From Schizochytrium sp. TIO01 (Eukaryota; Sar; Bigyra; Thraustochytrida; Thraustochytriidae): a stretch of DNA of 64,000 nucleotides. The notes below the pieces were generated by a model. That model made no database searches, was not told where the DNA came from, and saw only the letters and a list, made by a program, of their open reading frames with translations. This document shows, piece after piece, positions 45,549 through 62,578 of this stretch. Each line of letters opens with the position of its first letter. Position 1 is the stretch's first letter. The position numbers and the translations under genes were made by a program. The stretch covers positions 3,353,040 through 3,417,039 of the forward strand of contig SMSO01000035.1 in NCBI GenBank assembly GCA_004764695.1. Direction: 5' to 3'.

Positions 45549-46909
45549 ATGCAGTTTTTTCATAATATAGTTCTTTTGGCAACTTTGCTCGAACTGGTGC
45601 AGAGTACTTCTCTGCGTGAATCAGTACAGCTCGCGCTTGACGAGGCAAATGACAATACTCTCCGTGGATCCCTGCAGCAAGCTCTCCAAGAAGCTGGGAC
45701 GGGATCAATGGCAACAACTTGTACGAAAAAGAGCGATCCAGTCTGCTATGAAATTCTTGATACTTGGTGGGAAGATCGCGAAGCACAGAAAAACCGTGCC
45801 GCATTGAGCTTGTTGGATGAGCAGTGTGCTACTTTTACTGATTTTGCAGATGCTTGCAATGATGTGTCTCAGCGCACACTTGAGAAAACCAACAAAACTA
45901 TTTACGACAAGATTCTGGCTGACGAAGAACTCCAAACGATAGCGTGTACCATGATTGGAGCACACAACAAGTCTTGCATTGGCAATCCATGCAACCATTA
46001 CAGTAGGTTTTGAGTAATGAAGGTACTGAGTACCCGATTGAAATGATACTAACTAAATCTTTCACACAAATGTCACACGCAGATGTAAGTAAAGGAATGA
46101 GGAACAACCCGTGCCAGAGAAGGAATCTTTATATGCAAAGATAGCACAAGCTAACAAGTTGTGGCATGTTTAATGTAAGCAGTTGGGCACCTGCACGATT
46201 CAAGAGACTCAAGGACAGTGTTTCTGGTACACGAAAGCTATGGTGAATCAAGTCAATAGATATTATGATGATCACCCCGAAATTGATGCATCTAAAATTC
46301 CTGGCCATGGATGCTACCGCAACCCTTGTAATCTTCCTGGCGAAGGTAAGTTTTCAAGAAATTGAAATAGTCTCTCTTAATTGTTTGACATTGTATGACT
46401 TACTATAGGTTGCAATACAGGATCAACAATTGACAAGTGTTCAGGGCTGAGTACGGACATATTCACTTGCACCTATTGCAAAGGCCCTGGTGACAGGTGT
46501 CTTAAGAAAAAGGGCATGGGTTGTCAGTTGACTACGCCAACAACCTCAGCAGAATGTGCTTACGTAAACGATAACGATGTGGCAAAGTTGAGTATTTGGC
46601 AAAGGCTTGACCGGTAAGTCAATATCCTGTGGAAGGGTAGGTTGTTGATTTATAAAGTTGATACTAACTCTGACGGGTTTCGTTACAAAATTTAGACCGG
46701 AATGCCAGTGCTCGGACTTATTCACTCAATGCAATAGCACTGTTTATGTAAGTTGCGTGCAACGCTATGAAATTCTTGGATATTATCGCAAGCTAACTCT
46801 TGGTAATTGATCTTAAAATGGATCGAACTTAAATTTTCTCTGGAATTGTCGTGCGCAGGCTGAAAATAGGACTTATGAATATCAGCTGCGTTACGATCCG
46901 ACGAGTTAA
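45549..46909 (+). CDS. Secreted cysteine-rich protein, six exons including a 2-nt microexon
   Basis: Predicted exons: 45549-46002, 46083-46084, 46183-46345, 46409-46613, 46696-46747 and 46859-46909, giving 308 residues. The N-terminus is a signal peptide (MQFFHNIVLLATLLELVQS). The rest is Cys-rich with N-glycosylation sites (NKT, NKS, NST, NRT), so it is probably secreted. A motif xNPCN closes exon 1 and again the third exon, each just before a phase-1 intron, which suggests duplicated modules. All introns are GT-AG with good donors (GTAGGT, GTAAGT); TACTAAC branch sites precede the acceptors at 46082 and 46695. The third exon begins in phase 0 while the first ends in phase 1. Only a 2-nt exon AT at 46083-46084, flanked by GCAG and GTAAGT, restores the frame. 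The family is not recognised. Confidence 0.75.
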
Positions 46910-47614: not shown

Positions 47615-48271
47615 TCAGAAGGTAGCTTTAGCGCCAAGAAGATGCTCACGAGTAATTAGCTTAAGAATCTGAGCCTCTTCCTCGGGTGTTTCAGGGACCT
47701 TGAAGTCCTTGGGCTTCTGAGGAACCACCATGTAGCCTGCATCGGCGGTAAAATCATGTACACGAACCTGCTAGTTATCAGGAATGTGTGTGCCAAACTC
47801 CTCAAGGAGCTTGCGAGGTTCACGCACAACGCGTGCACGGTAAGAGCGAGCCTTGTACCAAGAAGGAGCAGGTCCCACAGGACCGCCCGGGTGGCAGCTA
47901 CAGAGAGTACATACAAGAAGGTTGTGCGCATTGTCATCATTGGCAACGACAATTAGGCGGGTAGGTGCGTTCGGGTTCCCACCATCGAAACCGAGCTCGG
48001 CAACGGCTGCGTTACCATCCTTAAGGAGGCGTTCGAGGAAACCTTCGTCCTGCCATGCCTTGAGTACAACCTTGGCACCGTTCCTGAGGCTACCTTTGGT
48101 CTCACCGCCTTCGACGACCTTTTGGAGGTCTTCCATGGTATAAACACCCTTTGCAGCAAGATCATCGATGAGGCCATTGCCGAATTGCTCGTCAGCAGCG
48201 ACCGGGCCTTCCATATCTCCTTCGCGTTCGAGAGCGACCTTCTCAACGGTGGTGCTGGTCCTCTGACACAT
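47615..48271 (-). CDS. Nitrile hydratase alpha subunit (cobalt type), interrupted by an in-frame TAG
   Basis: Frame from ATG 48271 to TAG at 47773-47771 (166 residues), then still open in the same frame for 51 codons to TGA at 47617-47615. The alpha-subunit metal claw CTLCSC is at residues 121-126 (VANDDNAHNLLVCTLCSC), followed by the family's GPAPSWYKARSYRARVVREPR. Thr in CTLCSC marks the cobalt type; two of these cysteines are oxidised in known enzymes. After the TAG, VRVHDFTADAGYMVVPQKP and a C-terminal LITREHLLG match the usual alpha-subunit C-terminal domain, so the stop falls inside the conserved protein. Nitrile hydratase converts nitriles to amides and needs a beta subunit and a metallochaperone, neither in this window. 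M20 is an alternative start. It may be a pseudogene, a readthrough gene or a sequence error. Confidence 0.8.
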
Positions 48272-49337
48272 GTCTTGTTGAAGAATATCGGATTATCAGA
48301 GAATTTCCTCTCAATAGATGGGTGCCTAGTGCATCCCTCGAATAGAAACAACGCCGCAGATCTGATCATGCTTCGAAGATCCGTTCGAAAGATAAGCCAA
48401 GCGAGTTCTTAGGAATGTCCACCCTTCTCTCGAGTTCTGATTCCCTCACTTTCTTTTGCGACTTTCATCCATACAATGTATGTAATAGGTAGTCAGGAGA
48501 AGCTCCACTCCCCTAAACTCTGCAGTGTTCATTGAGCTTTGAGAGCTTTTGCTTCGCTGAAAACGCATTCCAGCTCTGCTGCTCCCTTGGCTCCGCATGC
48601 TCCGCAGCGCCTTGGAGATCTCAGCATGGCCACCTCCTTCTGCAAGCACATGTTGTGCTATTCCGAGTCTACGTCGCCAACGCAGAACTGGCGCTTCGTT
48701 TTTTCCCTCGCTGCGCCTCTACTGCGGCGCCCCTCTATTCCCCACTTGCGGGTTCTATAACTCACTTTCCCCTTCTCAAACTACTATGCAACAAACCCTC
48801 TACTATGGGTTATACGACCCCCTCTGCAATGGGCTACTACAGCATAACAGCAGCAGCGGCAAATCCCTCCTCGACGAAGTTTCGTAGACCCCTGAGGCTG
48901 GAGACACACAAACCCCTTCAGAGATCCAACCTGGGTCTGGTCTCCTCGCAAAGCTCGATCTCCGGAAATGCCCACCACGGAGCTGGCTGCGCTTGGAGCT
49001 CCAGGCCTTGCTTGCATTTCCATTTCACGCGCTGGAAAGGAATTGTGGAGAATGAATAGCGAGACAAAGAGAGAGGGACCCAAAACAAAAGAGAAGCGCA
49101 GTTAAAGAGGGATTTAAAGAGAGAGAGTAATTAATCATTAATCATTAATCATTAATCATTAATCATTAATCATTAATCATTAATCATTGATCATTGATCA
49201 TTAATCATTAATCATTAATCATTAATCGCTAAGAAAGAGAGAGAACGCTTTGAGAGAGAAAAGAACGGGAAAGCAAAGCAGAGCAAAGCAGAGCAGAGCA
49301 GAGCAAAGCGAGATCTCGTCGGCGCGGCGCCAGCTGG
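48272..49337. other. Divergent intergenic region with heptamer array
   Basis: Lies between the starts of nitrile hydratase (-) and the Fused-type kinase (+). It contains the TAATCAT array listed separately and a GAGCAAAGCAGA-rich run (49270-49310). Overlapping open frames at 48532-49083 show no domain. Confidence 0.5.
49131..49227. repeat. (TAATCAT)n heptanucleotide array
   Basis: About fourteen 7-bp units of TAATCAT, two carrying a T-to-G change (TTGATCA). It ends about 110 bp upstream of the first ATG of the Fused-type kinase frame. Confidence 0.9.
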
Positions 49338-52300
49338 ATGGCGCGGCGGCGCGACGCGGCAGCAGAAGGAGGCGGAGGCGACTCAGCGCAGCCGCCCTCC
49401 CCCTCTCCGTCCTTCCGCGCTGATCCCGCGGTCCCCGGCGGCGCTCCGGATGGCGCCGGCGGATATGCTGCTGGAAAAAATCAAACTTCGCAGGCCGCCG
49501 GCAACGGCGCCTCTTCTTCTGCGGCACAGATGCGCACAGGCGAGGGGCCTGGCGCAGGGGACGCAGTGATGCGGACACCAACGAGGTCAAGGAGACCCCT
49601 ACGAGTACTGACAGCGTCGGCGGCAGCGGACTCGAGCCTGAGCTCGAATCCGAGTTCAAATCTTCAATCAAATCCTAATCCAAATTCAAGTGCAAACCTG
49701 CCTTCCAATTCACTTTCCGGCTCGAAATCAAACGCACATCGAAATCCGACCTTGGAGTCGAATTTTAATTCAAAGGCGACCGGTGATCAAGACAATGCAA
49801 CATCGAAGATGAACGCAAAAGTAATGGCAAAAAAAGGTAGCCTGAGCTTGAACGCAAGCCTAAACACAAACCCAAACTTAAACTCAAACCCGATGGAGAA
49901 CTACGTTGTGCTGGACATGATTGGAGAGGGCTCTTTTGGAAAGGTCCACAAAGGGCGGCGGAGATATACGGGCCATATTGTGGCGCTCAAATTCATCAGT
50001 AAGCACGGAAAATCAGAGGCTGAACTGGCGAAGCTGCGGAGCGAGATCGAGATTCTACGTACGCTGGATCATAATAACATTGTTCTTCTACTTGACTCCT
50101 TTGAAACACGTCGTGAGTTTTGCGTAGTGACAGAATTTGCGCAGGGGGACCTTTTTCAGCTGCTAGAGGATGACCGTCGCGTGCCGGAGCCTCAGGTACA
50201 AAATATTGCGAAACAGCTTGTGCAGGCGCTCTACTACCTGCATTCTCACCGAATTATTCATAGGGACATGAAACCTCAAAACATCCTCATTAGCAGCGAT
50301 GGCCGCGTCAAGTTGTGCGACTTTGGGTTCGCACGCGCGTTATCGGCCAAAACCATCATGGTGACCTCTATTAAGGGCACACCTTTGTATATGGCCCCCG
50401 AACTTGTTCGAGAGCAACCTTACAACCACACTGCCGACCTTTGGTCTCTTGGTGTTATTCTTTATGAGCTCTTTGTGGGCCAACCTCCTTTTTTCACAAA
50501 CAACATTTACACGTAAGTTTACTTGGGGCTAGCGACGTATATACTGGTGTTGGATGTTGAAACCAAGTTGACTTTGGTTTCAATAAGACTACACTATCTG
50601 TGCGTTTTGATTGCTTTGGATCCCAATTGACTTTGCAACTGATCCACTAACTGAACAACCTAATGTCTCTTTGCACGTTCTGTCTTCTGCCTATTCATTG
50701 TCTTATCAAATGAATGACCTATATTCTGCTTGTGGAACGAGATTGCCCGCTTACCCAAAACAATGTTGAACACCACAGACTGATCAATCTCATTGTTAAA
50801 AATGAAGTTCGTTATCCATCAGAAATGTCACAGCTTTTTCGATCCTTTTTACAAGGATTGTTGACCAAAGATAGTCGCCAACGTCTCCAATGGCCTAAAC
50901 TTTTTGACCATCCATTTGTACGCGAATCATCAGAGGAGACACAGGCTAGAGAAATTGCAGAGGCGAATTATCTTAACAACCCTCGATATCGTCTCGACCA
51001 GTTTCTTGGCGTTAAACATCTTGCTGTGCCCCCAACACCGTCGTTGTCTTCTCCTGTTCGGATGAGTGAACCACGCAGCCCGCGTTGGCCTAATTCGCAC
51101 GAAAAACATCAGCAAAGGTATGAAACACAGCATCATCAGCAGAGTCCGCGACAATATCAGGACTACCAGCATCATCAACAACGCAAACAACATTCACAAC
51201 AAGGATCCCCTCAACAACACAATCACCACTTTGAACCTTTGGAAAACATCGAAGTTCTTTCACATCCATCGGCACCACCAGACGACCCTGCTTCTCCGCG
51301 TCTCCGCCGCCGAAATTCTATTGCCAATGTTGACCAGGACTCTCGAACCGCACCGGAACGCCTGCCCGTAGACGGCGAGCTTATCCCGTACGATCAGAAC
51401 GCTGGGATCTCTAAGTTCTCAAGAAGATTAAACAATAAAGGGCGGAGTACGAGGGGGGCTGCGCTGAGTTCTCCGCGCAACATTGCCCACGGAGGCGACA
51501 ACTTGGCTAATGTCAACCCGTCGCCTACTAGCAAACTTATAGGCACAGTCAATGCAAATACTAATACCACACCAAAGCTCGCTGAAGTGGCCACGGCTAC
51601 ACCAACAATGACTATTCTGCCCAACAATGTTGGAGTAAATGGTCATCATCACCAACATTACACACATGCAGTACCGACTGCGGATGATATGGTGCTTCTT
51701 GTTACACGGGCAGCAGGTACTGGGGAAGCGTCTTTTGCCATGCGTTACGATAATGGAGTTCTCAAGCAACTCTGTGCCAAATTAGCAGATGAACGAGCAA
51801 GTGCAGAGGGCGTACGAAATGCTCTCAAAGTTATTGTTCATCTTGCTGGGAAATCTGTGGAGCGCCTTGGTGTCTCAGCAAGGAGCGACGTCCTTTTAGA
51901 TTGCGATCTCTTTGACATTATTGTTCGTCTTTGTAAACAAGAACTTCGGAGACGCTCGCGCCGAACTGCGCCTGTTCTTGCCGATTCTTTGCACGCTTTG
52001 CGATGCCTTTTAAGAGAACACATGAGGGAGCAAGAACCCCTGCGCGTTGACAAACGAGTTGGAGATTTATGTATTCGTGCTCTAACGCCTTCAGTGGAGG
52101 CGTTTCAGTCTGTACAGGGAGCGCAGCTCGATGCCATCAAGTGTGTACTCCTCATTTGTAGCTTTTGTACCGCATACACCCCTAGACTATGGATTAGTGT
52201 ACAGCAAGAAGTAGCCACGGATGACTTTTGCAACGCTCTAGCGGTTGTCCTACAGCATAGCAACGTCAAGCGCCGGCGCTCTGTTGACCAACGGAGCAAA

Positions 52301-60392: not shown

Positions 60393-62578
60393 TTAAGACT
60401 GCTTTGCTCTTACTGTCTCCAACTCACGCCGAAGTTCATCAATCTCCCAATCTGCAGATTGACCGAAGGCTTCCTCAGTCATGTCTGTCTTAGTCTTTGC
60501 CATGCCAAAGTCGATAATAACAGGACTCTGGGTTTCCTTATTGCATAGGACATTGCGAGCAGCAACATCACCGTGCAACACACCGAGGGAGTGGATCGCA
60601 TCGAGAGCATTCAATGCCTTTTCCACAAAGTCATCCGTGATGTCTTCAGGTGACAAAGACCCACCAGCATACTTTGTTCCAAAACCGTACATAACATGAT
60701 CATCAAATCTTCCATGATCGATGAACTCGGGGATATTTTCGCCTTGTAGCGATTCTAATTGCTTGTAAATTTCAGCTTCATGTATAAATGCGGGAATCTC
60801 AGCTTGCTGTTTAAACATGTCCAGTACCTTCACCACATTGTCGCTCTTTTCTTCTCCTAGTTGGGGGAAATGAAAGCGAAATACCGGTCCCGTGCGGCCT
60901 TCTGGGAGCTGACTAAACTCCTTACAACGTATTGCCTCGAGCATGTCAACCGCTTTCCCATCATTTGTATAACCGCTACCATAGTTACGCATAATATTGT
61001 TTATCATTTGATTTCGTTTCATGCTTCACGTCCCGATCACTCCTACATTCATCTGGTAGTGTCATACGACGTCGGTCCTTGGGTCCTTCTTCTTCATCAC
61101 CACAGGGAACCATTTCCATATCTCCGATAGATCCAATATCTATCCCCCTTTTATCACCAGCGATAAGAATAGCAAGTGAAATAAGCTGCATCGTACTGAT
61201 TTTTCCATTCTCCATGTCTCCTACCATATCATATGTAACGGGTTCAGTGATGAGCAGGTGGCCATCACAATCCCTAATGAAAACATGGGTATGTAGGTAG
61301 TTCGAGTAAATGCCAACCAAGAGACCATTCAAGTACATATAGTTATAAAGTTGTCGAATGACCGAATTATCTTTGTGTCGTTGGGAAGTGCAGCCCACAC
61401 CGTCACATCCGTATTCACAATATTCCTTACCGAGATCAATGGTTGGGAAAACCAGGACCTCTGAATTCGCCCGCGATCATCGGTTCCTGACGTTTAAGAA
61501 GCGGCGAACTAAACTGCGAATCATTTCCTTGGACACCACGACTAATCAAAAAGCTCATTTGACCTCGTGGCGCAGGTTCCCTTACAGATGAGGCGAACAG
61601 ACTCATTGATTCAGGTACCTTCTCATGGCCAGATTCTCTCATGGCCGACAATACATTCATCATGAAATATCCAAAAGGGCTTTCGACTGATCCCTCAGTA
61701 CTTAACCTATACCCATCAGCCATGGCTTGAGATGCCCTCTTGAAGTCGAGTGTAGAAAATAGTTGATCCAGGGTGTCAATGTATTCTCGACGGCAGCAAT
61801 AACTCAAGAAGTGATCGATAGACATCGTTTTTACTTGCATGGGCGATAAAGGATAGTTTTTGAGGTTCGCAAGACTTGTAGGGTTCGCGAGAAATTCATT
61901 GGTCTCCAACAAAGTTGGCAAAGCTTGTTGAAACACCGTGCTGAGACCTTTCAGTCTTGCACCGCGGGACAGATCAGTTCTCGCTAGCTCCTCGATTGCT
62001 GCTTCAGATTTCTGGATATATCCATCAAGACTGACAAGGCGTTGTATTTTGGCAAGAAGTAGTTGCTCGTTCAGTTCTAAGGATTTTTCCGCTTCGAGAA
62101 GGTCGCCCATCTGACTCTTGTAAAGTTCCATGTACAAAGGTTTATACGAACCTTTTAAGCGATCATAGAAATCACTTTCATCGATGGAGCCCTTTGAAAA
62201 GGCATGCAGAAACACGTAATCGTCATCTCCTAAGGCACCAATGAGTTTCTGTTCCAGTCTCTCAATTTCTTGCGACAACTCGACTTTTTCAGCCTCGAGG
62301 TTCACAATTCCTCTATCCACACGCACATACTCCTCCTTTTTTTTCTTGAGCTCAGCTCTACCCGCCTCTAGGCTAGATTGAACAATGGTTCCCGGATTTA
62401 CACTGCTCAACACTCTGGTACCTTCTCGGGTCGGTCCAATCATCCGAAATACCGAAGAGGTATCTCCTTGACGTGGACCTAGTATACCAATGGTACTGGC
62501 AGCTCTCCTTAAACCCTTGAACATGGTGTTCAAACGATTGTTGGATCCTCGAACGATTGGGGTCTGCTGCTGCTGCAA
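60393..62578 (-). CDS. Nuclease-like plus kinase protein, Crinkler/REase-kinase type, in three frames
   Basis: Three successive minus-strand frames appear to belong to one gene. Frame A (62578-61436) is 380 residues with a coiled coil and ends in GEFRGPG, which resembles the ExK half of a PD-(D/E)XK nuclease. Frame B (about 61480-60985) continues with NSVIRQLYNYMYLNG, YSNYLHTHVFIRDCDG and a helix, the usual second half of REase domains that precede kinases in Crinkler-like proteins. Frame C (61022-60393) is a small protein kinase with VKVL, HEAEIYKQL, LHGDVAARNVL (HGD instead of HRD) and IIDFGMA. Two introns would join them: 61452-61371 (GT...AAG, weak donor) and 61029-60921 (GT...AAG), both restoring frame. 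Frameshift decay is the alternative. In other eukaryotes such proteins are effectors or resident nucleases; the role here is unknown. Confidence 0.55.

Follow-up and report, generated by a model that had tools for sequence, protein, structure and literature searches.

A candidate two-nucleotide exon in a gene for a cysteine-rich protein of Schizochytrium sp. TIO01

Layout of the gene and its splice sites

The window analysed here is a stretch of 64,000 nt (C34:3353040-3417039) from a genome of 64 Mb in 37 contigs. Its forward strand carries a gene for a predicted cysteine-rich protein in which two larger coding exons are separated by a pair of introns, 1a and 1b, with a candidate exon of two bases, AT, between them. 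The features of the gene are as follows; C13 refers to a duplicate on another contig, and C30 and C34:2649 refer to uninterrupted relatives.

45549..46002, + strand: exon 1, 454 nt, an open reading frame that aligns with the C13 copy without indels
46003..46082, + strand: intron 1a, 80 nt, GTAGGT...GCAG; the donor in the C13 copy is GTAAGT
46047..46053, + strand: TACTAAC in intron 1a, a candidate branch site whose A lies 30 nt before the 3' splice site
46083..46084, + strand: candidate 2-nt microexon AT, completing the Asn codon A-AT; first among 161 open models and the same in C13
46085..46182, + strand: intron 1b, 98 nt, GTAAGT...GCAG, with AGCTAAC, its A 28 nt from the 3' splice site
46171..46173, + strand: in-frame TAA, read directly and kept in C13, which excludes earlier acceptors for exon 2
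46183..46345, + strand: exon 2, 163 nt, from LGTCTIQETQGQC... to NPCNLPGE+G, placed by homology to the C30 and C34:2649 genes
46346..46420, + strand: intron 2, its CAG acceptor slightly favoured by homology; alternative TAG at 46408
46421..46613, + strand: exon 3, placed by homology; it would start at 46409 with the TAG acceptor
46614..46695, + strand: intron 3, 82 nt, with a GTAAGT donor and TACTAAC, its A 28 nt from the 3' splice site
46696..46747, + strand: exon 4, placed by homology to C30 (ECQCSD / RCQCSD)
46748..46858, + strand: intron 4, 111 nt
46859..46909, + strand: exon 5, ending in a TAA stop; the gene model is least certain here, at the C-terminus

Exon 1 begins with ATG at 45549, and its translation has what we read as a signal-peptide-like start and ends in ...GNPCNHY plus a single A. 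As the preliminary description of this DNA had it, the exon ends in phase 1 (at 46002) with a GTAGGT donor directly 3' of it, and the arrangement GCAG-AT-GTAAGT, which occupies positions 46079-46090, is preceded by TACTAAC at the distance then given. Both splice sites adjoining AT, an acceptor and a donor, are canonical, and each flanking intron is complete. Of the 16 introns in the family, with one intron 2 per gene in the count, 15 have GTAAGT as donor. The GTAGGT of intron 1a in the window is weaker than its GTAAGT counterpart in the C13 copy, which has TACTGAC in this intron where the window has TACTAAC.

The bare pattern AG-NN-GT is frequent, occurring in 38% of shuffles. When the intron was shuffled 20,000 times by dinucleotide, the fuller pattern YAG-NN-GTRAGT, with both introns at least 45 nt long, turned up in 66 shuffles; YAG-A[TC]-GTRAGT, in which the two bases make Asn, turned up in 13 under the same length limit. 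The window, both strands counted (128 kb), contains YAG-NN-GTRAGT once, at the AT microexon; in 19 regions elsewhere, one of them all N, it is found four times, and none of the four has CTRAC 15-50 nt upstream. A CTAAC whose A lies 28-30 nt before the acceptor is present in each of introns 1a, 1b and 3. CTRAC at 26-33 nt, a range picked after the sites were seen, occurs in 3.8% and 0.55% of shuffles, giving a joint value for introns 1a and 1b of about 2e-4. A branch spacing of 28-31 nt is not family-wide: among 16 introns, three (w2, c2 and y3) are without CTRAY, and in seven others (w4, c4, x1, x2, x3, y1 and y2) it lies 34-81 nt away.

Other features were noted elsewhere in the window. A frame of 166 aa on the minus strand (47771-48271) matches the nitrile hydratase alpha chain (Pfam PF02979). 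Its duplicate on C13 has 468 aa, with a histidine-rich linker ahead of the alpha part, and looks like a beta-alpha fusion; relative to it, the frame in the window is without the first part and ends earlier. Also on the minus strand (60393-61022) is a 209-aa frame in which residues 60-180 match the protein kinase domain (PF00069); it may belong to a larger gene. A large open frame at 49338, which on reading resembles a protein kinase, has a tandem repeat of ATTAATC-like heptamers (49130-49230) upstream of it.

Relatives and splice models across the joint

In accord with the preliminary description, exon 2 opens in phase 0 at 46183 or 46180, and the TAA at 46171-46173 blocks earlier acceptors. 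Exon 1 joined directly to either position runs into a stop 25-26 codons past the joint. Spliceosomal twin introns (stwintrons) and zero-length recursive sites retain no base between the excised introns; keeping zero bases between introns 1a and 1b shifts the frame at both 46183 and 46180, which fits neither arrangement.

A genome search identified one duplicate, on C13, at 92% identity, and at least eight more distant paralogues. In six of eight distant paralogues the joint is uninterrupted (C30:5067, C34:2649, C36:3758, C31:4239, C13:2797 and C13:6498). Where A plus AT would form a codon, Asn stands in all six, and in all eight relatives outside the window/C13 pair when the two that are split otherwise are included. 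Two of the uninterrupted genes, C30:5067426-5068046 and C34:2649567-2650268, each span exons 1, 2 and 3 with one continuous open frame (297 and 285 aa, respectively); the exon 2 stretch of C34:2649 was found in the frame itself and was also matched by search. The nearest relative, C30:5067, aligns without a gap through the joint (CTMLGSSNRTCVGNPCNQYNTGECTLQETAGRC versus CTMIGAHNKSCIGNPCNHYNLGTCTIQETQGQC), and C34:2649 likewise aligns gapless across it. In Pfam, exon 1, exon 2, C30:5067 and C31 fell into no family, and for C34:2649, C36 and C13:2797 the matches were all below the curated cut-off. A PDB search with C30:5067 returned no matching chain.

Splice models were enumerated in a narrow and a wide form. 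The narrow enumeration used GT donors, an exon 1 donor fixed at 46003, acceptors opening 46180 and 46183 alone, a first AG at 46033 or beyond, and a second intron of at least 40 nt; under these limits AT is the sole internal exon that leaves the frame open. The wide enumeration admitted GC donors, acceptors to 46260 and, for direct joins, other exon 1 donors, with a minimum intron of 20 nt for internal exons and 40 nt for direct joins. It yielded 161 open models, made up of 116 with an internal exon and 45 direct joins. Models were scored against the two nearest uninterrupted relatives, C30:5067 and C34:2649, and scores are given here in that order. AT joined to 46183 ranks first of the 161 on both relatives (407 and 312). 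The same exon joined to 46180, which the preliminary description had offered as an alternative acceptor, fits less well (396 and 304). A TT exon at 46159-46160, whose donor is poor and whose second intron would measure 22 nt, scores 398 and 303. At the end of intron 2, use of CAG (46420) gives 411/318 and use of TAG (46408) gives 407/312.

The top direct join of the 45 leads to an acceptor opening 46205 (354 and 264). Exon 1 spliced directly to this position would give a protein of 300 aa with K replacing NLGTCTIQE, and all later exons would stay open. This join nevertheless scores 53 and 48 lower than AT with 46183, loses four residues shared by all six uninterrupted relatives (Asn, Gly, Cys and Gln), and leaves the near-perfect signals of the AT exon unused; we regard it as very unlikely. 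Its open frame qualifies the earlier statement that a 2-nt exon is needed, which is right for acceptors 46183 and 46180 and too strong as a bare claim about frame. The complete flanking coding exons can be joined in frame only with the microexon, whereas cutting 22 nt off exon 2 also produces an in-frame join. The microexon is the best-fitting way of keeping the frame, though other ways exist.

Skipping of AT, always or as a switch, would join 46002 to 46183 or 46180 and produce a frame-shifted protein or an mRNA bound for decay. The outer splice sites are canonical, and a joint intron of 180 nt is plausible beside one of 140 nt in a relative. Against this, each half of the 180 nt has a separate candidate branch site, and the conserved part of the protein would be lost, with scores dropping to 128/108 (46183) and 140/111 (46180), which makes skipping of this kind extremely improbable in our judgement. 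A model that retains the intron scores 132/117.

Conservation in the duplicate and origin of the split

The C13 duplicate, about 92% identical, keeps AT, GCAG and GTAAGT exactly and shows the same frame gap. At this level of identity, conservation of the 12-base signal would by itself be weak evidence. It does bear on the idea that two bases were dropped through an assembly or sequencing error and that the microexon is illusory: because the same error would be needed twice, in the window and on the other contig, where the frame gap, AT and splice sites recur, the probability of this is practically negligible.

The window and C13 copies differ by no indels in exons 1-4, by two in intron 1a and by one in intron 1b; the absence of indels in the exons says little, because introns 2-4 have none either. 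Exon 5 is more divergent, with 15 substitutions and two indels across 51 compared positions. Across 292 codons the copies have a dN/dS ratio of 0.56 (with rounded counts, Fisher p=0.018); by exon it is 0.59 (exon 1), 0.62 (exon 2) and 0.50 (exons 3-4). Divergence in exon 1 (11.9%) and exon 3 (9.3%) is above that of the introns (3.2-8.7%). Constraint on the coding exons thus appears modest. A run of 98 bases at 46272-46369, spanning the end of exon 2 and the start of intron 2, is identical in the two copies and its surroundings differ by several percent; gene conversion is perhaps behind it.

Divergence of this kind could also be reconciled with exon 1 as the whole product, read into intron 1a to a stop at 46013 (154 aa), with the downstream exons as relics. 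The open frame 45549-46013 is present, the C13 copy likewise has one, ending ...NHYSKF, and between the copies the exons are no less divergent than the introns. Exons 2-4, however, are open and in register with the uninterrupted relatives in both copies, their dN/dS values (0.62 for exon 2, 0.50 for exons 3-4) fit poorly with relics, and full-length relatives exist. This makes an exon 1 product highly improbable.

The reading we favour, with considerable confidence, is that the window gene encodes a cysteine-rich protein of about 304-308 residues, probably secreted, and that its mRNA includes the 2-nt exon AT. The frame gap, the top score among the enumerated models, Asn in the uninterrupted relatives and the conserved duplicate all argue for it. 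That A plus AT makes Asn and restores the frame, as first proposed, is supported by the uninterrupted paralogues, the duplicate and the scored enumeration alike. Other elements of the preliminary description survive in part. The microexon and exon 2 together do measure 165 nt (2+163) and run from phase 1 to phase 1, but the notion of a symmetric 1-1 module gains no further support, because relatives carry the region uninterrupted. Exon 2 was said to end in xNPCN; NPCN is indeed near the end, but the actual end is NPCNLPGE+G, so that NPCN is not last.

Two neighbouring paralogues on C30 have predicted microexons of a different size near the same joint.

C30:6851506-6851520, - strand: 15-nt microexon NPCYR with phase-2 introns on both sides, predicted from sequence
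C30:6853725-6853739, - strand: 15-nt microexon NPCYR in the neighbouring paralogue, with phase-2 introns on both sides, likewise predicted

The 15-nt sequence is CAACCCGTGCTATCG or AAACCCATGCTATCG, and the intron positions of these genes differ from those of the 2-nt pair. A tree built from ten members on 222 columns, in which branches are long and one of seven is starred (C13:6498 entered as part of a longer frame), requires two changes between unsplit and split states. With the forks drawn open, the 2-nt pair groups with the unsplit C30:5067 and C34:2649, and the 15-nt pair groups with the unsplit C36, C31 and C13:2797. Separate intron gains would be the simplest reading, with losses in the unsplit members as the alternative, and we infer that the introns of the 2-nt pair were gained inside an ancestral uninterrupted exon. 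An intron gain inside an old exon had already been suggested; the six relatives that are uninterrupted at the joint agree with it. It is possible, if rather doubtful, that the NPC-NxGxCTIQ joint is a hot spot at which intron pairs were gained at least twice, leaving a 15-nt exon once and a 2-nt exon once. If so, the paralogues would form a series showing one coding joint reduced to near-minimal exons.

Several sources for the introns themselves were considered and rejected. Intron 1 does not behave as a repeated element: its 180 bases matched this locus and the C13 copy only, in a search that skips very common words. As mutual duplicates introns 1a and 1b do no better than chance (459 of 1000 shuffles as high), and in a comparison of 11 family introns for introner-like copies none of the 55 pairs reached 2 or fewer of 200 shuffles. 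Another possibility considered was that intron 1b derives from the coding joint by duplication and decay. Read in the microexon's frame, 46085-46145 gives SKGMRNNPCQRRNL, which aligns to NKSCIGNPCNHYNL at the intron site with 7 of 500 shuffles as high, and NPC in this frame, a pattern picked after it was seen, occurs in 3 of 5000 shuffles. The protein likeness is matched by 33 of 500 shuffles for the whole of intron 1 and by 157 of 500 for the C13 intron, and at the DNA level 277 of 500 are as high; the resemblance is probably chance.

Proposed splicing and known ultra-short exons

Each of the two introns, of 80 and 98 nt, is complete, with a separate donor, candidate branch site and acceptor, and could be recognised across itself. 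Introns 1a and 1b would most likely be removed one after the other through intron definition; sequential removal would be expected because a 2-nt exon gives hardly any room for two spliceosomes at once. Once either intron is gone, AT would lie within an exon of normal size and the remaining intron could be spliced normally. We infer both this order and constitutive inclusion of AT, and skipping may occur as a minor or regulated event.

What is unusual here is that a single family within one genome shows nearly the same joint in three forms, uninterrupted and with a predicted 15-nt or 2-nt exon. AT is a candidate for a kind of exon that automated annotation would probably overlook or cut short, with a control within the same genome. 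If RNA confirms it, it would be a natural 2-nt exon beyond the plants and the fungus with 1-nt exons, and the paralogue series could be used to study the origin of ultra-short exons and the order of intron removal.

Our literature search found no paper on a named two-nucleotide exon or 2-nt microexon. Titles and abstract openings of the papers found for microexons in oomycetes or Phytophthora name no 2-nt exon, and in PMC3274533 the single mention of a microexon is an aligner setting. AT would nevertheless be a near-minimal exon in an ultra-short class that is already known in a few other organisms.

The closest parallel is the 1-nt exon of Fusarium CYP621A, which according to the abstract is confirmed by RNA reads (PMC12940212). 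The argument described there is alike: the phases of the exons are incompatible, the base that is lacking can be read from an intronless homologue, and it comes from a conserved AG-N-GT site. The Fusarium exon has 1 nt, lies in a fungal P450 and is backed by RNA, whereas the exon described here has 2 nt, lies in a gene for a cysteine-rich protein and is read from sequence. The introduction of the same paper cites exons of 2-5 bp in Arabidopsis, Drosophila and human; these are of the same size class. The case in the window rests on paralogues.

In plants, two reports describe experimentally shown 1-nt exons in APC11 and VPS55 (PMC4674806, PMC8831610). These also are ultra-short exons between two introns, and APC11 also has intronless copies; they differ in having 1 nt and in their experimental proof, where the window has a 2-nt exon predicted from sequence. 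For APC11 the introns were proposed to be removed one after the other, and when the single base was replaced by TT, TT was recovered in cDNA (PMC4674806), so that, on that account, the splicing machinery of living plant cells can handle a 2-nt exon.

Recursive splicing (PMC4674806, PMC13149111) likewise removes sequence stepwise through an internal acceptor-donor pair. The proposed arrangement differs from it in that two coding bases are kept and the introns, at 80 and 98 nt, are not very long. Within the family, the NPCYR exons resemble AT as microexons near the same joint of related proteins, and differ from it in their length of 15 nt, their phase-2 introns and their other intron positions.
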